A stretch of DNA of 11,124 nt from an uncultured Prevotella sp. (lineage in GTDB: Bacteria; Bacteroidota; Bacteroidia; Bacteroidales; Bacteroidaceae): assembly GCA_934229335.1 (NCBI GenBank), contig CAKQDQ010000079.1, forward strand, positions 1-11,124, read 5' to 3'. Shown piece by piece: positions 3,093-11,048 of the stretch. The first letter of the stretch is position 1, and every line of letters begins with the position of its first letter. Under the pieces are notes generated by a model. That model made no database searches. It had not been told where the DNA came from and saw only the letters and a program-made list of their open reading frames with translations. Made by a program: the position numbers and the translations under genes.

Positions 3093-4202
3093 TTACACCA
3101 TTATTAGGTCTGACATTACGTCATCGCTTATGTAAAGACCCTTACGTGTTAGGTGCAGACGATTGTTGCTGATTGCCAGTGTGCCTGCGTTGAGACTGTT
3201 GCGTGCGCTCCTTGTTATATACAGACGTTCTTTCGCGCTGAGTTCGTTCAGGTCTATACCTTCGCGTGTGCGCAATGCAGTTGTTATCATGTCGTTATAT
3301 CGCGTTGTCTCGTCAATAGGTTCTGTTTCTGCTGGTACGATGTCTTTCTCTATAGACTCTATATATTCCCTGACGTCACTAACGTTCCATTGTCTTGAAA
3401 CAGTGTTGTAAGAGTGAGCTGCTGCGCCCAGTCCTATGTATTGCGTTCCGTTCCAATATGAAGAGTTGTGCATTGAGCGAAAGCCTGGCTTGGCAAAGTT
3501 GCTTATCTCGTAATGTTCATAACCGTGAGAGGTTAGTGTGTCGATAAGCGTGTCATACATTGCCACGCTAACGCTTTCGTCATTTTCCTGTATCTCTCCT
3601 TTCTCTAACATCTTATACAGTCTTGTGCCTTCCTCATACATAAGAGAGTAGGCGGAGAGATGCTTCACGTCTAACGCTATGGCTTCCGTTAAGTCCTCCT
3701 TCCATTCTTCGAGCGATTCGTTAGGGAAGCCAAACATAAGGTCTATGCTGATGTTATGAATGTCGTTATTATGCAGATTCTCTATTGCCGCAGGAATATC
3801 CTTGGCAGTGTGGCGTCTGTTGAGGAAGCGTAACCTCTCGTCAGAGAAAGTCTGTACACCCATAGACACCCTGTTGATGCCACAATCATGTAGTGTTTTA
3901 CATAATTCGGACGTTACGTCGTCAGGGTTACACTCTATGGTAAACTCTTCGGTGACGCCTTCTTGGTAAATCGCTTCTGATATTTTCCTGATGTTCCCCT
4001 CGCTAAGAAGTGAGGGGGTGCCACCGCCAATGTATATAGTTTTAGTATTCGCATCGTCAAGATACCCCTCTCTTAGTCTACGTTCTTTTAGTAGCGCGTC
4101 AACATATTTGTCCTGTATACTTAACAAACCTACGGAAGAATAAAATCCGCAGTATATGCATCTGCTTTTACAAAAAGGTATGTGTATGTATGTCCCTGCC
4201 AT
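3093..4202 (-). CDS. hemW: Radical SAM heme chaperone HemW
   Basis: HemW is a cytoplasmic radical-SAM protein that binds heme and is thought to deliver it to respiratory enzymes. It was long misannotated as an oxygen-independent coproporphyrinogen oxidase. The 369-residue product opens with HIPFCKSRCIYCGFYS: Cys11, Cys15 and Cys18 are the CxxxCxxC ligands of the 4Fe-4S cluster. The position that is a fourth Cys in true HemN is Phe20, which marks HemW. GGGTPS at 59-64 and the RVSMGVQTF segment (111-119) belong to the SAM-binding barrel. Residues 231-264 (YEISNFAKPG, then NGTQYIGLGA AAHS) are the HemN/HemW hallmark, followed by a HemN C-terminal domain. I chose the ATG at 4202, not the in-frame ATG at 4268, because the -7 promoter element (4237-4245) lies between them. 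It appears to be transcribed alone. Confidence 0.93.
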   Translation of the reverse strand: MAGTYIHIPFCKSRCIYCGFYSSVGLLSIQDKYVDALLKERRLREGYLDDANTKTIYIGGGTPSLLSEGNIRKISEAIYQEGVTEEFTIECNPDDVTSELCKTLHDCGINRVSMGVQTFSDERLRFLNRRHTAKDIPAAIENLHNNDIHNISIDLMFGFPNESLEEWKEDLTEAIALDVKHLSAYSLMYEEGTRLYKMLEKGEIQENDESVSVAMYDTLIDTLTSHGYEHYEISNFAKPGFRSMHNSSYWNGTQYIGLGAAAHSYNTVSRQWNVSDVREYIESIEKDIVPAETEPIDETTRYNDMITTALRTREGIDLNELSAKERLYITRSARNSLNAGTLAISNNRLHLTRKGLYISDDVMSDLIMV

Positions 4203-4236
4203 ATATTCCTGATTATGTTTTTGACGATGTCTGTTT

Positions 4237-4269
4237 GCAAAGTTACTGTTTTTTGACGAAAGTAACAAA
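4237..4269 (-). promoter_or_regulatory. hemW promoter, Bacteroidetes type
   Basis: On the minus strand TTTG (4269-4266), a 20-nt spacer and TAACTTTGC (4245-4237) form a near-ideal match to the -33/-7 consensus. The predicted start site near 4230 leaves a leader of about 30 nt before the ATG at 4202. Confidence 0.7.
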
Positions 4270-4318
4270 AAAGTACGATTTTATCTTCTTTCCCATACGC
4301 TTTCTCAAATTTTATTTG

Positions 4319-4327
4319 TACCTTTGC
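4319..4327 (+). promoter_or_regulatory. Candidate plus-strand promoter -7 element upstream of the repeats
   Basis: TACCTTTGC matches the TAnnTTTG consensus exactly and points toward hsdM. A TTTG at the ideal distance is absent. It is the only good match I found between hemW and hsdM on this strand. If used, transcription would start near 4335, cross all the repeats and hairpins, and give hsdM a leader of about 640 nt, or make a separate RNA. It is divergent from the hemW promoter about 75 bp away. Confidence 0.4.
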
Positions 4328-4495
4328 CATGGTGTTTCCGATAAATATCACCTGTACGGTAAAATTGAAGTCCATGGTGTTTTCGATAAAGTTTCACCTG
4401 TACGGTAAAATTGAAGCCCATGGTGTTTCCGATAAAGTTTCACCTGTACGGTTAAATTGAAGTCCATGGTGATTCTGATAAAGTTTCACCTGCAT
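4327..4495 (+). repeat. Tandem repeat, 46-bp unit, about 3.7 copies
   Basis: Units begin at CCATGG at 4327 (45 bp), 4372 (46 bp), 4418 (46 bp) and 4464 (partial, ending near 4495). The consensus runs CCATGGTGTTTCCGATAAAG, then TTTCACCTGTACGGTAAAAT, then TGAAGT. Copies differ at only a few positions. The unit is not a multiple of three, so it is not a coding repeat, and there are no spacers, so it is not CRISPR. Each unit holds the palindromes CCATGG and ACC-TGTAC-GGT, as expected for a repeated protein-binding site. The twelve bases CCGATAAAGTTT recur once more at 4881-4892. Confidence 0.85.
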
Positions 4496-4509
4496 GCTTA
4501 AGCGGAAAC

Positions 4510-4589
4510 GCCCTGAAAGGGCAACCTGCACATAGCCCAGGGTACCACCCTGGGGTAGTGAAATCCATAGCTATGCGCCCTGAAAGGGC
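4510..4589. repeat. REP-like palindromic block: two GCCCTGAAAGGGC hairpins around a CCCAGGGT hairpin
   Basis: GCCCTGAAAGGGC (5-bp stem, GAA loop) occurs at 4510-4522 and again at 4577-4589. Between them CCCAGGGT-ACC-ACCCTGGG (4536-4554) forms an 8-bp stem, and CATAGCTATG (4566-4575) is a perfect palindrome. Paired GCCCTGAAAGGGC-type hairpins resemble repetitive extragenic palindromes in gut Bacteroidales and other phyla, sometimes mobilised by REP-associated transposases (from memory, untested here). No transposase is in the window, so this would be a non-autonomous copy. Confidence 0.65.
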
Positions 4590-4682
4590 AAAAGCGTCAT
4601 TTACTAATCATAAAAACCAAAAAACAAACAGAAAGAACAAGTATTTAGACATATTACATATAAAGCGTTTACGATTATTTGG

Positions 4683-4876
4683 AGTCTCTTGAAATTTGGC
4701 GATTGAAAAAAGACTATACGTAATTGATAAAAGTGAATGCTCACGCTCATAAGGCGTGAGCTAAACTTATCTACGTATAGCAGGTTACGCCAAATACCTA
4801 AGAGACTGATAAGTGAGGCTTACGCCTTTCTTGTGTCTTCTCTTCAACCAATAGGTATTTGATTCCCCGACCTGCT
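4683..4876 (+). ncRNA. Candidate switching RNA or DNA structure: two mutually exclusive long hairpins
   Basis: Fold 1 nests four stems: AGTCTCTT (4683-4690) with AAGAGACT (4800-4807); ATTTGGCG (4694-4701) with CGCCAAAT (4788-4795); CTATACGTA (4714-4722) with TACGTATAG (4772-4780); and GCTCACGC (4739-4746) with GCGTGAGC (4754-4761). Short GAT/ATC and AAGT/ACTT pairs lie between, giving about 40 bp. Fold 2 reuses the 3' arms: AGCAGGT (4779-4785) with ACCTGCT (4870-4876), AAATACCTA (4792-4800) with TAGGTATTT (4852-4860), and AAGAGA (4800-4805) with TCTCTT (4839-4844). An AGGC-ttac-GCCT hairpin lies inside fold 2. The two folds cannot coexist. Neither ends in a terminator T-tract. It lies 100 bp before hsdM; function is unknown and a DNA-level palindrome role is equally possible. 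Confidence 0.45.
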
Positions 4877-4925
4877 AATTCCGATAAAGTTTACGCTCTC
4901 TAACCCTTATGGCGGCAAAGAAAAG

Positions 4926-4967
4926 CGTTTTATTCTTTGTCCCCATTGTCGTACAATGAATAAAACG
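4926..4967 (+). promoter_or_regulatory. Hairpin just upstream of the hsdM start
   Basis: CGTTTTATTC (4926-4935) pairs perfectly with GAATAAAACG (4958-4967). Inside, CATTGT-CGT-ACAATG (4944-4958) forms a second 6-bp stem that shares the G at 4958. The structure ends 8 nt before the hsdM ATG, so in RNA it could limit ribosome access; as DNA it could be an operator. No control-protein gene is visible nearby. Confidence 0.5.
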
Positions 4968-4975
4968 TAATATTT

Positions 4976-6700
4976 ATGACAGACATAGAACTGAAACAAC
5001 TAAAGGACAACCTTTGGCATTCTGCTGACATGCTCCGTGCTGGTGCCCATTTGGCTGCCAACAAATATGGACAGCCCATCCTTGGACTCATCTTCCTGCG
5101 TTATGCCGATGTGCTCTTCAAGCAGCATAAGGCGGAGATAGACGAGGAATACAACAAATACAAAGGCTCACGAATGGAGCGGGAATATAAGGACATTGCC
5201 GTGGAGAAGTGTGGCTTCTTCTTGCCAGAGTGTGCCTACTTCGATTTTATTAATGATGCGCCTGATGATGCCCATAAGGCTGTCTTGGTGAAAGAGGCGA
5301 TGGAGGCTATCGAACGAGAGAATCCTCGCATGGAGGGAGTATTGCCTAAGGAAGTATATGGTCAGTTGGTGCCAGAGGATGATCCAGAGTTGTTGAGCCG
5401 CATAGTGCGTGTGTTCAAGGATATTCCTGAGAACATCAGCATCGACATCTTCGGTCAGATTTACGAATTCTTCCTTGGCAAATTTGCTTTGGCAGAGGGA
5501 AAGGGTGGTGGTACTTTCTATACACCAGCCTCGGTAGTACAATACATGGTGGAGGTTCTTCGACCTGTTGCGGGCGACAAGAAGTTTCTCGACCCTGCCT
5601 GTGGTTCGGGTGGTATGTTCGTGCAAGCGGCTCGCTATATGCACCGCCACAATGCTACCAACCAAAACATGATGAGTTACCGCTGTTATGGCATAGAGAA
5701 GGAATCTGACACCGTGAAGTTGGCGAAAATGAACCTCTTGCTCAACAATGTGCGAGGTGAGATAACGGAGGCAAACTCTTTTTATAGCGACCCTTACAAT
5801 GCCTTCGGTCAGTTCGACTATGTGATGGCTAATCCTCCATTTAATGTTGATGAGGTAGTGTATGATAAAGTGAAGGACGAAGAACGATTCACCGCCTATG
5901 GCGTGCCTCGCAACAAGACACAAGCCAACAAGAAGGCTAATAACAAAATAAAAGTCGCAAAGAATACCTCTGAGAAGGCTAATGACAAAACGGAGACGGT
6001 TCCTAACGCCAACTATCTCTGGATAGGTTACTTTGCTGCAGCTCTGAATGAGACGGGCAAGGCGGCTCTCGTCATGGCTAACTCAGCAAGCGATGCGGGT
6101 GGTAGCGAGTTAGAGATTCGCAAGAAGATGATACAGGAGGGCATCATCTCACAGATGGTCACCGTGTCAAGTAATATGTTTTCTACCGTTACGCTCCCTG
6201 CCACACTGTGGTTTTTTAACAAGCAGCGCACTAAGAAAGACGAAATCCTCTTCATCGATGCTCGCAACATCTTTACGCAAGTGGACCGTGCCCACCGCAA
6301 GTTCTCTGACGAACAAATCAAGAACCTCGGCATCATCACTCGTCTCTATGAGGGCGATAGCGATGCGTTCTGGGCTTTAGTCGATGAATATAAGGCAGAA
6401 GGCAAACAGACGGAAGTGGATTGGTTACTCGAACGTTGGCCAGAAGGCAAATACCGTGACGTCATTGGCTTGTGTAAGGTGGCTAAGATAACAGGCGAGG
6501 ATGGCATAGAGGATAATGACTGGAGTCTGAATGCCGGTCGCTATGTTGGCGTAGTGATAGAGGATGACGGTATGACAGAAGAGGAGTTCCGTCAAGAAAT
6601 GCTGTCGCTTAATGGCGAGTTCTCTAAACTCAATGCAGAGGCTGTGGACTTGCTGAAGGAGATACAGAAGAATATCGTGGAACTGTTTGGGGAGGGATAG
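4976..6700 (+). CDS. hsdM: Type I restriction-modification methyltransferase subunit HsdM
   Basis: HsdM, with HsdS, transfers a methyl group from SAM to the N6 of adenine in the target site and protects host DNA. The 574 residues begin with the all-helical HsdM N-terminal domain, including NKYGQPILGLIFLRYADVLF. The segment GGGTFYTPASVVQYM leads into the catalytic domain. Motif I, FLDPACGSGG, is at 204-213 and binds SAM. Motif IV, NPPF, at 286-289 is the adenine-specific catalytic tetrad. An Asn/Lys-rich stretch at about 313-341 separates motif IV from NANYLWIGYF and looks like a species-specific insertion. The C-terminus is helical and probably packs on HsdS. The ATG at 4976 fits the family start; as usual for the phylum, no Shine-Dalgarno is present. 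hsdS starts 4 nt after the stop, suggesting translational coupling. Confidence in family is very high. Confidence 0.97.
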   Translation: MTDIELKQLKDNLWHSADMLRAGAHLAANKYGQPILGLIFLRYADVLFKQHKAEIDEEYNKYKGSRMEREYKDIAVEKCGFFLPECAYFDFINDAPDDAHKAVLVKEAMEAIERENPRMEGVLPKEVYGQLVPEDDPELLSRIVRVFKDIPENISIDIFGQIYEFFLGKFALAEGKGGGTFYTPASVVQYMVEVLRPVAGDKKFLDPACGSGGMFVQAARYMHRHNATNQNMMSYRCYGIEKESDTVKLAKMNLLLNNVRGEITEANSFYSDPYNAFGQFDYVMANPPFNVDEVVYDKVKDEERFTAYGVPRNKTQANKKANNKIKVAKNTSEKANDKTETVPNANYLWIGYFAAALNETGKAALVMANSASDAGGSELEIRKKMIQEGIISQMVTVSSNMFSTVTLPATLWFFNKQRTKKDEILFIDARNIFTQVDRAHRKFSDEQIKNLGIITRLYEGDSDAFWALVDEYKAEGKQTEVDWLLERWPEGKYRDVIGLCKVAKITGEDGIEDNDWSLNAGRYVGVVIEDDGMTEEEFRQEMLSLNGEFSKLNAEAVDLLKEIQKNIVELFGEG

Positions 6701-6704
6701 AGGT

Positions 6705-7778
6705 ATGGAACTTCAGAAGTATAGATTGTCTCAATTACTGACTATAAAGAATGGTAAAGACTATAAGTCTTTGAATGTTGGAGATGTACCAGTCTTTGGA
6801 AGTGGTGGGTATATGTGTTCTGTTGATTCTTTTTTATATGATAAACCAAGTGTTTTATTGCCTCGAAAAGGTACTTTGTCTAATATTCAATATTATAATG
6901 AAGGGGCATTTTGGACAGTTGATACTTGTTATTATACAATTGTAAACGAAGAATTGGTGGATTCTTACTATATCTATAGGTATCTGAGAAATCTTGATTT
7001 GTCAGGTTTGGATACTGGAGCAAGTATTCCAAGTATGACTCAAAAGACTTACAATGGAATAAAGGTTCTGTTGCCATCTTTAGAAACTCAGCACCGCATC
7101 GCCTCCATCCTCTCCACCTACGATACTCTGATAGAGAATAACACTAAGCGCATTCGCCTTTTAGAGAAAATGGCAGAGAACCTATATAAAGAATGGTTTG
7201 TCCGCTTCCGCTTCCCTGGACATGAGAAAGTTGAAATGGAGAGGGGATTGCCGAAAGGGTGGAAGATAAAAAGATATGAAGACGAATTGAATGTAAAATA
7301 TGGTAAAGGATTGCCTACAGATAAATTGACGGATAAAGGATATCCTGTATTTGGTAGTAATGGACAGATAGGATATTATACTTCATACATATATGAGCAA
7401 CCTCAAATTCTTATATCGTGTAGAGGAGCATCTTCTGGTGTGGTAAATATATCTTTGCCAAAGTCTTTTGTTACCAATAATTCTTTGGTTTGTGAGATCG
7501 GAGGTAATACAGAGTCTGTTTTTGAATATTTGAAATACTATTTCTTGAATACTAATTTAGTTCAATATCAAACAGGTTCTGCTCAACCACAAATCACAAT
7601 TAATAATATTGCGAAGCTTAAAATGTTAGTTCCTTCAAAAGGAGTTCAGAACAAGTTTGGGGAAAAGGTAAGGGGTATCGATAATGAGATACAAAATCTT
7701 GCAAAGCAGAACACTCTCCTTGCTCGCCAGCGAGACCTCCTTCTCCCTCGCCTCATGTCAGGCAAACTTGAAGTATAG
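6705..7778 (+). CDS. hsdS: Type I restriction-modification specificity subunit HsdS
   Basis: HsdS sets which bipartite DNA sequence the complex recognises. The 357-residue protein has the standard two-fold layout: target-recognition domain 1 (about 5-128), a conserved helical spacer (129-174, QHRIASILSTYDTLIEN through YKEWFVRFRFPGHE), target-recognition domain 2 (about 180-315) and a C-terminal helix (316-357, ending RDLLLPRLMSGKLEV). Both recognition domains carry a similar VPVFGSGG / YPVFGSNG turn, as in this family. I start at the ATG at 6705, 4 nt after hsdM and preceded by a purine-rich GGGGAGGG; an in-frame TTG at 6687 would overlap hsdM needlessly. Codon use is mosaic: the recognition domains are A+T-rich, while the spacer and C-terminal helix match the neighbouring genes. 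This fits exchange of recognition domains by recombination. The target sequence cannot be read from the protein. Confidence 0.95.
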   Translation: MELQKYRLSQLLTIKNGKDYKSLNVGDVPVFGSGGYMCSVDSFLYDKPSVLLPRKGTLSNIQYYNEGAFWTVDTCYYTIVNEELVDSYYIYRYLRNLDLSGLDTGASIPSMTQKTYNGIKVLLPSLETQHRIASILSTYDTLIENNTKRIRLLEKMAENLYKEWFVRFRFPGHEKVEMERGLPKGWKIKRYEDELNVKYGKGLPTDKLTDKGYPVFGSNGQIGYYTSYIYEQPQILISCRGASSGVVNISLPKSFVTNNSLVCEIGGNTESVFEYLKYYFLNTNLVQYQTGSAQPQITINNIAKLKMLVPSKGVQNKFGEKVRGIDNEIQNLAKQNTLLARQRDLLLPRLMSGKLEV

Positions 7779-7805: not shown

Positions 7806-10800
7806 ATGAAGTCATTTATCAGTGAAGACGATATAGAGCAATCTATCTGCAACCGCTTGACGCAAGCCGAATATGGATGGAAACGAATAGAATGTGACGC
7901 ACGGGTGGAGGCGCAGGATGATGTCTCTACCACGGGGCGTGCAAATCCATCGGAGTGTATTCTGCCAAACGTATTCCTCGATGCCTTGAAGAGACTGAAC
8001 CCACAGGTGCCAGAGGATATTCTGAAAGGCATACTGCAAGACTTCCGTAAGGACTATACAGGTACCGATATGGTGGACACGAACTATTCTCTATATCAGA
8101 AAATGCGCAATGGCATAAAGGTGCAGGTGCGTAAAAACGGAAAGGAAGACTTTGAGATAGTGCGACTGTTTGACTTTGACTGTCCTGACCGCAACGACTT
8201 TCATTGCGTTAACCAGATGTGGATTAAGGGGCATTATCGCTATCGTCGTCCCGACGTGTTGCTCTTTGTCAATGGTCTGCCGGTTGTCTTTATAGAATTA
8301 AAGAACTCTACCGTAAAGATAGAGGAGGCGTACAACAAGAACCTGACGAGTTATCGCAAGGATATTCCGAATATCTTTGCGATGAACCAGATATGCGTGC
8401 TCAGCAATGGATTGCAAACAAAGATGGGGGCATGGAACAGTAACTATGAGTTCTTCTTTGAGTGGCTTCGTGTGGACGACGAGAAGGAGAAACTGGACCG
8501 TGAGCAGATAGAGAACCACGGACTGAGCATAACAAACCTAATAGACGGTCTCTTCAGAAAGGAACGACTGTTGGACTATATAGAGAACTTCGTCTTCTTT
8601 GATAACAAGCGCATCAAGATTATAGCCAAGAACCATCAATATCTTGGCGTGAACAACTTGATGAGGAGTGTAGAGAATAGAGAAAGGTTGAACGGCAAAC
8701 TTGGTGTGTTCTGGCATACACAAGGCTCGGGCAAGAGTTACTCGATGGTGATGTTCGTGAGAAAGGTGAAGCGTAAGATGCATGGTAACTTTACATTCCT
8801 GGTCATTACCGACCGTGAGGACTTGGATACGCAGATACATAAAACCTTTGTACGCACGGAGGTAATAGGTCCAAAGGAGGAATGTCAGCCGAAGAACTCT
8901 ACGCAACTGCGTGATTTTTTGAGGGGAAACAAACCGATGGTATTTACCTTGATACATAAGTTTCAGTACGACAAAACAAAGAAATATCCTGTCTTGTCTG
9001 ACCGAGACGACATCTTTGTATTGGTAGATGAGGCGCATCGTACCCAGTATAAGCAACTGGCAGAGAATATGCATACGGGTCTGCCCAATGCTAACTACAT
9101 TGCCTTTACTGGTACACCGCTATTGGGCAGTAAGCGATTGACCAACCAGTGGTTTGGCGACTACGTGTCAGAATATAACTTTGCACAAGCCATAGAGGAT
9201 GGCAGTACTGTGCCATTGTTCTATAGCAGACGAGTGCCAGAGGTGGGCTTGACCAATGATTGGCTTGATACTGACATAGACCAAATATGCGATGACGAAG
9301 ACCTTAACAACCAAGAGAGGGAACTATTGCAAAACTCTTCATCACGCATTATGGAGGTTATCAAACGAGAAGAGCGACTCGACTCCATAGCACGAGACAT
9401 TGCGCACCACTTCCCGCGTAGGGGATTCTTAGGCAAGGGCATGGTGGTGAGCGTGGACAAATACACTGCCGTAAAGATGTATGACAAGGTGAAACACTAT
9501 CTGCCAGAGGAAAAGAAGAAACTGGTGAAAGAGCGTAACCAAGCGAAGACTGAAGAGGAGAGGGCGGAGAAGAATAGACAACTCGAATACCTTAGCAAGA
9601 TGGAGATGGCTGTGGTAGTAAGCAAGGAGGACGGTGAGGAAGAGAAGTTTGCCGCTCAAGGGCTTGATATTACGCCACATCGTAGGAAGTTGGAGGCTAT
9701 ATCGCCAGATGGAAAAGATATAGAGGATAGGTTTAAGGATAAGAACGACCCATTGTGCTTGGTATTCGTCTGTGCAATGTGGTTGACAGGCTTTGACGTA
9801 CCGTCGCTCTCTACGCTCTATCTCGATAAACCGATGAAGGGACACACCTTGATGCAGGCCATAGCCAGAGCCAACAGAGTGTTCCCAGGGAAGTCGTGTG
9901 GCATCATCGTGGATTACGTAAACGTGTTCAAATACATGCAGCAGGCGTTGTCGGACTATGCTTCAACGGGGGATGATACGGAATATCCTGCAAAGGACAT
10001 AGAGCAGTTGGTTCGCACTATTGACAAGACTATCATTGAATGTGACATCTTCTTGCGGTCGCTCGGTATCAAGATTGTTGATATTATCGCAGAAGGTAAT
10101 ACTCTCGACCGACTTGAAATGTTCCGTAAGGCATACAACCGCATCTTGGAGAAGGATGAATGGAAAGATCGCTTTAAGGTACTGACCAATCTCTTGATGA
10201 ATCTATATGATGCTGCTAAGCCCGAGATATTTGAAAGAGATTGGCATAACGATAATTTTGCGCCTTTGTCTTATCTCAACGGACTTTTCTGTAACCAGAT
10301 TGATGACGAGAAACTGCGACGCGCCAAGGCAAGGATGGCGGAGACGCTGGACCAAAGTGTTTCTTCTACGAGGGTTGATGCGACAAGTAACGGTGTTGCT
10401 ACGGAAGGTATGGCAGCGGAAGAACTACATGCAGACTATGTAATTCATCAAGGGAAGGTTATTGACCTCAGTAAACTGAATGTTGAGGCTCTACGCAAAG
10501 AACTCGATACGACGCCTTATAAGGCTCTTGAGATTGATGATCTTCGTGATTTTATAGAGCGTACCTTGAAACAGATGATTAATAAGAATACAACGCGTGT
10601 GAAGTTCTCGGAACGATACAAGGGTGTCATCGACCGTTATAACGCTGGGGGCAGTGAGAATGAGGATTATTACGAAAAACTACTTCAACTCATTGAGGAT
10701 TTGAAGCAGGAGCAGTCTCGCTCTACTGACCTCGGATTGGAGGAAGAGGAATTGGAAATCTACGACTTATTGTCGGCTAACAGAAAGTTGACAAAGGCGG

Positions 10801-11048
10801 AAGAGCAGAAGGTTATTCTTGCTGCAAAGAATCTCTACCAAAAGTTGTTGAAGGAAAAGGATAAGGTGATGGTGGTAGACTGGTTTAAGGATGAACAGCC
10901 ACGCCATCAAGTCTTCGCTTTGATACAGACCTCCCTTAATGATGACTTGCCTATGAGTTATGACAAGGTAACGTTTAACGATAAGACAAACTTGCTCTTC
11001 AATCATTTTGTGGATATGGCAGTGCAAGGATATGGATGGGTAGCGTGA
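7806..11048 (+). CDS. hsdR: Type I restriction endonuclease subunit HsdR
   Basis: HsdR joins the M2S core to form the restriction enzyme, which binds unmethylated sites, pumps DNA past itself using ATP, and cuts at a distance. The 1080-residue length is typical. The N-terminal nuclease domain has a PD-(D/E)xK motif: Asp150 in RRPDVLLF and Glu164-x-Lys166 in VVFIELKNS. The SF2 motor follows: Walker A QGSGKS at 306-311, DEAH at 408-411, FTGTPL (motif III), and the second RecA domain with TGFDVPSLSTLYLDKP and QAIARANRVF (motif VI). A charged helical C-terminal domain (from about 730) contacts the methylase. A Ser/Thr/Ala-rich segment (SVSSTRVDATSNGVATEG) in it looks like a flexible linker. All key residues are intact and the frame is unbroken, so the system is probably active. 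The ATG lies 27 nt after hsdS. Confidence 0.97.
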   Translation: MKSFISEDDIEQSICNRLTQAEYGWKRIECDARVEAQDDVSTTGRANPSECILPNVFLDALKRLNPQVPEDILKGILQDFRKDYTGTDMVDTNYSLYQKMRNGIKVQVRKNGKEDFEIVRLFDFDCPDRNDFHCVNQMWIKGHYRYRRPDVLLFVNGLPVVFIELKNSTVKIEEAYNKNLTSYRKDIPNIFAMNQICVLSNGLQTKMGAWNSNYEFFFEWLRVDDEKEKLDREQIENHGLSITNLIDGLFRKERLLDYIENFVFFDNKRIKIIAKNHQYLGVNNLMRSVENRERLNGKLGVFWHTQGSGKSYSMVMFVRKVKRKMHGNFTFLVITDREDLDTQIHKTFVRTEVIGPKEECQPKNSTQLRDFLRGNKPMVFTLIHKFQYDKTKKYPVLSDRDDIFVLVDEAHRTQYKQLAENMHTGLPNANYIAFTGTPLLGSKRLTNQWFGDYVSEYNFAQAIEDGSTVPLFYSRRVPEVGLTNDWLDTDIDQICDDEDLNNQERELLQNSSSRIMEVIKREERLDSIARDIAHHFPRRGFLGKGMVVSVDKYTAVKMYDKVKHYLPEEKKKLVKERNQAKTEEERAEKNRQLEYLSKMEMAVVVSKEDGEEEKFAAQGLDITPHRRKLEAISPDGKDIEDRFKDKNDPLCLVFVCAMWLTGFDVPSLSTLYLDKPMKGHTLMQAIARANRVFPGKSCGIIVDYVNVFKYMQQALSDYASTGDDTEYPAKDIEQLVRTIDKTIIECDIFLRSLGIKIVDIIAEGNTLDRLEMFRKAYNRILEKDEWKDRFKVLTNLLMNLYDAAKPEIFERDWHNDNFAPLSYLNGLFCNQIDDEKLRRAKARMAETLDQSVSSTRVDATSNGVATEGMAAEELHADYVIHQGKVIDLSKLNVEALRKELDTTPYKALEIDDLRDFIERTLKQMINKNTTRVKFSERYKGVIDRYNAGGSENEDYYEKLLQLIEDLKQEQSRSTDLGLEEEELEIYDLLSANRKLTKAEEQKVILAAKNLYQKLLKEKDKVMVVDWFKDEQPRHQVFALIQTSLNDDLPMSYDKVTFNDKTNLLFNHFVDMAVQGYGWVA

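Follow-up and report, generated by a model that had tools for sequence, protein, structure and literature searches.

A candidate bistable leader RNA upstream of a Prevotella-like hsdMSR operon, with relatives before Bacteroidales restriction-modification genes

Introduction

Intrinsic-terminator attenuators and riboswitch expression platforms exchange a terminator for an antiterminator. The element described here resembles them: it is a putative 5' leader with predicted mutually exclusive helices that have a strand in common, and a U-tract follows one of these helices. It also departs from them. It has three large strands where those systems switch a small hairpin, and a further fold, formed late, is predicted downstream of the U-tract. 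There is no known ligand and no conserved leader peptide, and the leader stands before about seven kinds of restriction-modification (R-M) gene. In processive antitermination of the EAR, put or UpxY-LoaP kind, a structured RNA likewise lies in the 5' part of an operon; unlike those RNAs, our element has no Rfam match at gathering score and a predicted bistable three-strand design.

To our knowledge, accounts of R-M control center on C proteins, promoters, antisense RNA and proteolysis. Published examples rely on a C protein, on an antisense RNA or on rare codons (PMC3874152, PMC12707154, PMC6456624). These systems resemble our proposal in their goal of keeping restriction and methylation expression in check, but here the leader RNA itself would adopt alternative folds. 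In a term search of PMC3874152, "riboswitch" does not occur, the single "attenuat" refers to host killing and the single "leader" to the SymE toxin mRNA; the same kind of search in PMC12707154 gave no "attenuat," "riboswitch," "leader" or "untranslated." Among the matches listed in a wider literature search, titles and the first lines of abstracts mention no structured leader common to R-M genes. The word "restriction" is absent from the main text of a human-microbiome RNA survey, whose supplementary motif tables may hold the motif unnamed (PMC8040213). A 2010 survey includes structured Bacteroidetes motifs such as Bacteroidales-1 and Bacteroid-trp, which are also RNA motifs of this phylum from comparative genomics (PMC2864571). 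Where these motifs have an Rfam 15 entry, neither the window nor any of 20 relatives matched it at gathering score.

Results

The window, by which we mean the whole stretch of 11,124 nucleotides that was analyzed, has a Prevotella-like source: its hsdM is 86% identical, in the best segment, to hsdM of an uncultured Prevotella MAG (locus L001). By Pfam, hsdM, hsdS and hsdR make up a plain type I R-M operon (Table 1). Just upstream of the operon there is no sign of the small HTH gene that characterizes C-protein-controlled R-M systems: no ORF of at least 60 aa starts within 4409-4975 on either strand. Bacteroidales promoters have the -7 motif TAnnTTTG. The sole match to it within 4200-4975 is TACCTTTG, a candidate promoter 338 nt upstream of the element, a distance that is unusually long for the family described below.

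A sequence-only reading of this DNA had proposed two alternative folds with a common strand at 4683-4876. Every arm that it listed, for both folds, was found in its place. The limits had to be moved, as the element spans 4665-4898, and the inventory of strands was incomplete: the 5' box, strand C as a second partner of strand B, and the D box had all been missed.

Table 1. Features of the putative leader and of the operon that follows it (window coordinates)
Feature	Position	Strand	Evidence
Candidate promoter TACCTTTG, fits TAnnTTTG	4319..4326	+	motif
5' box GCGTTTAC, able to pair with strand A (GTGAATGC)	4665..4672	+	own versus swapped strands
Fold 1, 5' third: P1a AGTCTCTT, P2a ATTTGGCG, P3a CTATACGTA	4683..4722	+	folding; P1/P2 covariation
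Fold 1 helix P1: AGTCTCTT / AAGAGACT	4683-4690 / 4800-4807
Fold 1 helix P2: ATTTGGCG / CGCCAAAT	4694-4701 / 4788-4795
Fold 1 helix P3: CTATACGTA / TACGTATAG	4714-4722 / 4772-4780
Fold 1 hairpin P4, arms GCTCACGC / GCGTGAGC	4739-4746 / 4754-4761
Strand A GTGAATGCTCACGC, 5' side of hairpin P4	4733..4746	+	folding, covariation, strand swaps
Strand B GCGTGAGCTAAACTTATC, on the 3' side of P4; can pair with A, C or D in turn	4754..4771	+	strand swaps
Middle strand, common to both folds: P3b TACGTATAG, AGCAGGT, P2b CGCCAAAT, ACC, P1b AAGAGACT	4772..4807	+
Strand C GATAAGTGAGGCTTACGCC (4808-4826), complementary to B, then U-rich stretch; terminator-like	4808..4835	+	inverted repeat
Fold 2, 3' third: P1c TCTCTT, TAGGTATTT, ACCTGCT	4839..4876	+	folding, strand swaps
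Fold 2 arms AGCAGGT / ACCTGCT	4779-4785 / 4870-4876
Fold 2 arms AAATACCTA / TAGGTATTT	4792-4800 / 4852-4860
Fold 2 arms AAGAGA / TCTCTT	4800-4805 / 4839-4844
D box GATAAAGTTTACGCTC, a complement of B and, within the fold-2 class, possibly of the 5' box as well	4883..4898	+
hsdM, type I methylase subunit, operon gene 1	4976..6700	+	Pfam N6_Mtase 1.9e-71, HsdM_N 2.9e-17
hsdS, specificity subunit	6687..7778	+	Pfam Methylase_S 2.6e-31
hsdR, restriction subunit	7806..11048	+	Pfam SWI2_SNF2 1.2e-72, HSDR_N 1.1e-40

A 211-nt segment of this region folded at -69.4 kcal/mol, whereas dinucleotide shuffles gave -42.2 (sd 4.2). This is a z of -6.5, and none of 200 shuffles was as stable; the reverse strand gave a z of -4.7. 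Which fold is predicted depends on how much of the sequence is present. When the leaders of the window and of nine homologues were cut after the C hairpin, all were predicted to form fold 1; with 90 nt more, all were predicted to form fold 2. The two states of the window are nearly equal in predicted energy, at -86.6 with the middle strand paired upstream and -88.8 with it paired downstream.

We searched for relatives of the element. With blastn, 4640-4975 matched 13 of 200 genomes of the genus to which the L001 genome belongs, some matches being very short and one of them (L022, 22 nt) not an element. We then built a covariance model, R1, from 8 fold-2-type leaders; it holds fold 1 and the small C hairpin, and omits helix P3 because MAFFT could not align it. 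R1 matched at least 240 of 398 genomes of the genus (E<=0.01), at least 62 of 247 of the order (E<=1e-4) and at least 23 of 247 of the class (E<=1e-6), all of them lower bounds since these large searches scored no more than 7 or 11 candidates in each genome. Six genomes in which up to 150 candidates each were scored carried 3 to 21 copies. At L081, neighboring copies (6996-7168 and 7217-7369) both lie upstream of one gene, and copies are adjacent or closely spaced at L068 and L070 as well. Further comparisons used 164 members, drawn from the best-scoring matches rather than at random: 165 matched rows minus an opposite-strand shadow in L081. This set does not include L016, L021 or L070's second copy.

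In Rfam 15, the window had sub-threshold matches alone, and 20 relatives had no family match at gathering score, one tRNA apart. The miRNA, snoRNA and sRNA families that Rfam listed for the window fell below gathering score and were rejected. Plasmid and phage records held no DNA similar to 4600-4975, and exact probes for strand B (three variants) matched none of the IMG/VR contigs. Spread via sequenced phages or plasmids is therefore not supported at that sensitivity.

Where do the relatives lie? In 152 of the 158 members with enough sequence, an ORF of 100 aa or more begins on the same strand no further than 250 nt downstream, compared to 25 of 152 on the mirrored side, and the median gap between element and gene is 67 nt. 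Upstream, TAnnTTTG occurs within 300 nt in 133 of 156 members, mostly at 50-125 nt; the reversed motif occurs in 46 and mononucleotide shuffles gave about 25. This is the position expected of a leader, between a putative promoter, known by its motif, and a start codon. Two other roles that had been suggested for the element, a stand-alone structured RNA and a site for recombination or replication, fit poorly with such constant placement before genes.

The pattern of substitutions suggests that the constrained molecule is RNA. In an alignment of 99 matches (98 distinct rows), 93.5% of the cells of the modelled structure were paired, compared to 69.8% after shuffling; the covariation score was 0.702 versus 0.253, and 35 of 38 pairs, with P3 not counted separately, had changes on both sides, figures that lean towards this structure because the alignment was fitted to it. 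Sliding the partner strand abolished the pairing. Over all 164 members, the fold 1 helices contain 3882 Watson-Crick pairs, 355 G.U, 36 A.C and 126 other mismatches, and this excess of G.U over A.C argues that the constraint acts on the + strand RNA. Outside the modelled helices, GC.TT.GC, AA after P1, AATT, ACTTATC, GG and CCT are conserved.

Since P3 could not be aligned, B:C and fold 2 were tested by duplex energies, without an alignment: each member's own strands were compared with strands swapped in from other members. A:B was better than the swapped mean in 159 of 164 members and B:C in 149 of 164. Fold 2 beat all 8 swaps in 69 of 164, compared to 16 of 164 for a 5'-flank control. The fold 2 energies formed a histogram with two peaks, and after viewing it we set the fold-2 class at a duplex of -30 kcal/mol or lower; by that definition a third strand competes for the middle strand in 85 of 164 members. 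A fold-2-type leader before a helicase gene at L013 carries an insertion of about 50 nt within fold 2 (about 1420-1468, - strand), because of which its score, -25.8, falls short of the cut-off. For the full-length sequence, the better predicted state was fold 2 in 83 of 85 members of the class (median 7.7 kcal/mol) versus 5 of 79 others.

The remaining strands were compared in the same way. Of the 85 fold-2 members, 83 had a 5' box whose pairing with its own A beat the swapped mean, and so did 61 of 79 others. For B:D the counts were 55 of 77 and 18 of 43, the latter being no signal. The box:D pair had been planned as a control; given its signal in the fold-2 class (63 of 77, versus 23 of 43 others), we report it as a possible real contact. 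The A:D control gave 36 of 77 and 22 of 43. Of the 9 nt directly after C, 6.2 are T in the fold-2 class and 7.2 in the other leaders, compared to 2.6 in the control; a C box was recognised in 78 of 85 and 74 of 79 members, respectively. These comparisons support mutually exclusive helices in the base element, and the family appears to have the hallmarks of a terminator/antiterminator attenuator: exclusive helices that compete for a common strand, both of them conserved, with a U-tract directly after one.

Within the fold-2 class (85 members, 70 distinct middle strands), the median leader has 15 of its last 22 middle-strand positions paired in both states. The 3' arm makes 188 wobbles with the middle strand and the 5' arm makes 20, which would suit a third strand that is a weaker duplicate of the first. 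The sequence-only reading had called for a check of covariation in each fold; both folds are kept, by the fold 1 alignment, the strand swaps and the two-state middle strand. Taken together with the G.U excess on the + strand and the 5' leader positions, covariation of both folds also favors, by comparison, the idea of RNA-level control of restriction expression. We conclude that the element is most likely a member of a new family of bistable Bacteroidales leaders and would act in cis, as a 5' untranslated leader on the hsdMSR mRNA.

Two familiar kinds of leader were considered. For a riboswitch, which would have a conserved ligand-binding aptamer, the leaders offer the conserved positions given above, and the target genes have no obvious metabolite in common. 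By eye, some Prevotella copies read ATG GCG TTC GCT at the 5' box; a leader-peptide attenuator was dropped because this ATG is not conserved.

Which genes follow the leaders? We clustered the first downstream genes by blastp and classed each cluster from one to three representatives tested with Pfam and PADLOC; 5 of the 164 members had no usable ORF. R-M or helicase genes follow 72 of 82 fold-2 leaders, compared to 4 of 77 others (p about 1e-28), and moving the fold-2 cut-off between -24 and -36 gave p values from 2e-29 to 9e-24. With one count per protein cluster, R-M genes make up 10 of 16 fold-2 clusters and 0 of 60 others. The gene types are PLD/SNF2 helicases (some DrmD-like), type II methylases, HsdM, type III Mod, MmeI-like IIG enzymes, an EcoRI-type methylase, a C5 methylase and three singletons with methylase or ResIII domains. 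Because several of the ten clusters have common methylase or helicase superfamilies, we give the count as about seven enzyme types. In the genome G348, where 7 of 9 matches were examined, all five restriction-gene leaders among these have fold 2 and both leaders of BspA-type genes are without it.

The other 10 of the 82 fold-2 leaders precede genes for PAP2 phosphatase (3), acyltransferase (2), MBOAT, ATP-grasp, DUF4468 and two unknowns. Envelope-type genes (PAP2 phosphatase, acyltransferase, MBOAT and ATP-grasp) are found behind fold-2 leaders at L035, L015, L114, L042, L136, L034 and L140. A protein of about 170 aa follows the leader at L093 (1733-2254; fold-2 energy -33.0) and L105 (1728-2240; -27.2). 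It had no Pfam match at L093 and is possibly the product of an unrecognised defense gene.

Leaders with fold 1 alone have different neighbors. By a simple hydropathy rule, 54 of 77 are followed by a protein with a hydrophobic N-terminus, compared to 5 of 82 fold-2 leaders. We scanned 76 of these 77 proteins with Pfam and PADLOC, one being listed twice; BspA-type repeats were present in 8 of the 76, and among the matches listed were the four R-M genes already counted and a ZorA-like protein. The gene for the latter (L060, 1720-2919; PADLOC ZorA2 3.1e-127, Pfam MotA_ExbB) places its leader possibly on a Zorya anti-phage system. Hence, fold-1-only leaders can precede defense genes too.

On a tree of the leaders, the fold-2 state changes only 7 times. 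Fold 2 is thus mainly a trait of one leader lineage, and a test on independent pairs has no power. Among 69 fold-2 leaders that belong to 7 R-M families, the downstream gene family changes at least 24 times, as judged from a quick tree of short sequences. The 5' flank of hsdM at L001 (1-188) and that of the helicase at L013 have 123 nt in common at 97%, as if promoter and leader moved as one module. Counting L014 too, such flanks (123 nt, 94-97%) stand before unrelated genes, hsdM and an SNF2/DrmD-like helicase.

Viewed from the gene side, R1 matched 3 of 30 HsdM_N loci, a few of which have little upstream sequence; at least two further hsdM loci (L116 and L167) have the leader. The leader is a minority feature among hsdM loci. 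The sequence-only reading had asked whether homologues always precede hsdM. They do not, as they also stand before type II, IIG and III methylases and PLD/SNF2 helicases. It had added that homologues scattered beside unrelated genes with one fold preserved would speak against a switch. Half of this is what we see: copies beside unrelated genes keep fold 1 alone, whereas copies with both folds stand mostly before R-M genes. This placement suggests that bacterial immunity is controlled at the RNA level in a way that has yet to be described.

Discussion

Our preferred reading, held with modest confidence, is that 4665-4898 would be a cis-acting attenuator leader, in which an antiterminator helix A:B competes with a terminator-like helix B:C and a late fold 2 is added on restriction genes. 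State 1 would comprise P1, P2 and P3 with A:B. In state 2 the 5' box would take A, and the freed B would pair with C just before the U-rich stretch. During transcription, state 1 should form first and act as the antiterminator by hiding B from C. If state 1 failed, with A held by the 5' box or a factor involved, the B:C terminator would stop RNA polymerase. Most restriction-gene leaders have an extra 3' third that could capture the middle strand (fold 2) as well as B (via D); in read-through transcripts, fold 2 would displace fold 1 and might set mRNA accessibility, translation, stability or decay. The restriction and methylation genes could in this way be kept at low expression, or their expression could depend on a signal, be it a protein, a metabolite or the speed of transcription. 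Because A:B closes as a tight hairpin between neighboring strands, B:C would hardly form unaided. Two features of the window count against an attenuator: the U-tract after C is imperfect (TTTCTTGTG), and the nearest promoter motif is far upstream. The link with restriction is weakened by the confinement of fold 2 to one lineage, the 3 of 30 HsdM_N loci, the Zorya-type gene and the 10 of 82 fold-2 leaders before other genes.

Perhaps the leader switches translation or mRNA stability without termination, the fold altering access to the start region or RNase entry and the U-stretch being incidental? Fold 2 ends at a near-constant distance from the start codon (about 26 nt; quartiles 22-28), as such a switch would have it, and the U-tract is weaker in the fold-2 class than in the other leaders. 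However, the U-richness after C is still far above the background of the same leaders in either class, and B:C, unneeded for translation control alone, is conserved in both. We consider this explanation unlikely. Less probable again is a processive-antitermination RNA, which would load a NusG paralogue of the UpxY/LoaP type or act on RNA polymerase in the manner of put or EAR, so that long operons are completed. A conserved structured RNA near operon 5' ends, in several copies per genome and before diverse genes, would suit that role, and UpxY proteins exist in Bacteroidales (see also PMC12691694). It leaves the third competing strand and the marking of restriction genes unexplained, however, and no Rfam family was matched at gathering score.

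We would give very little weight to a DNA element, be it an attC-like hairpin of single-stranded DNA that serves recombination or integration, or else a gene-carrying MITE-type repeat. Several copies per genome, the adjacent copies in L081 and the promoter-leader flanks common to the unrelated genes at L001 and L013 are in its favor, but the attC and MITE-like classes are disfavored by the G.U excess, by a placement upstream, on the gene's strand and at a narrow distance, and by helix sequences that diverge between copies while pairing is kept, as those of a copied repeat would not. It is just as improbable that the terminated leader is a trans-acting small RNA with regulation of its own gene secondary: with a length of about 200-250 nt and a U-tract at its end, such a leader would look like an sRNA made by intrinsic termination, but its coupling to a start codon downstream and the way fold 2 depends on gene class speak for action in cis.

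The attenuator leader of our preferred reading invites a wider and more tentative proposal, which we hold to be somewhat less likely than not. Bistable leaders would be regulators of accessory genes throughout the Bacteroidales, and one lineage, having gained a wobble-weakened copy of the 5' arm as its third strand, would have become a portable promoter-leader module, joined repeatedly to type I, II, IIG and III and PLD/SNF2 systems. One RNA switch could then make all of them answer to a cell-wide cue, for instance infection or some second messenger. If true, a common RNA leader on about seven kinds of R-M gene would be a new layer that tunes whole defense sets together, and how Bacteroidales keep several restriction systems without self-damage would become testable. 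Fold-2 leaders before genes of unknown function could mark unrecognised defense genes, and the leader itself would be a natural three-strand RNA switch.

Other repeats lie near the element and elsewhere in the window. A tandem array of a 46-nt unit (3.6 copies, 4327-4492) is found 3' of the candidate promoter. Its units hold the D-box core TTCCGATAAAGTTT at 4381, 4427 and 4473 with at most 1 mismatch, the copy in the D box itself being at 4879 (chance expectation 0.00); the array copies are possibly decoys for strand B. Two REP-like palindromes CGCCCTGAAAGGGCAA, 67 nt apart, follow at 4509-4591, where Rfam gave a sub-threshold Acido-Lenti-1 match (4509-4554, - strand). On the 3' side of a corA-like gene (1772-2698, - strand), an inverted repeat at 1548-1627 with sub-threshold miRNA matches is probably a terminator.
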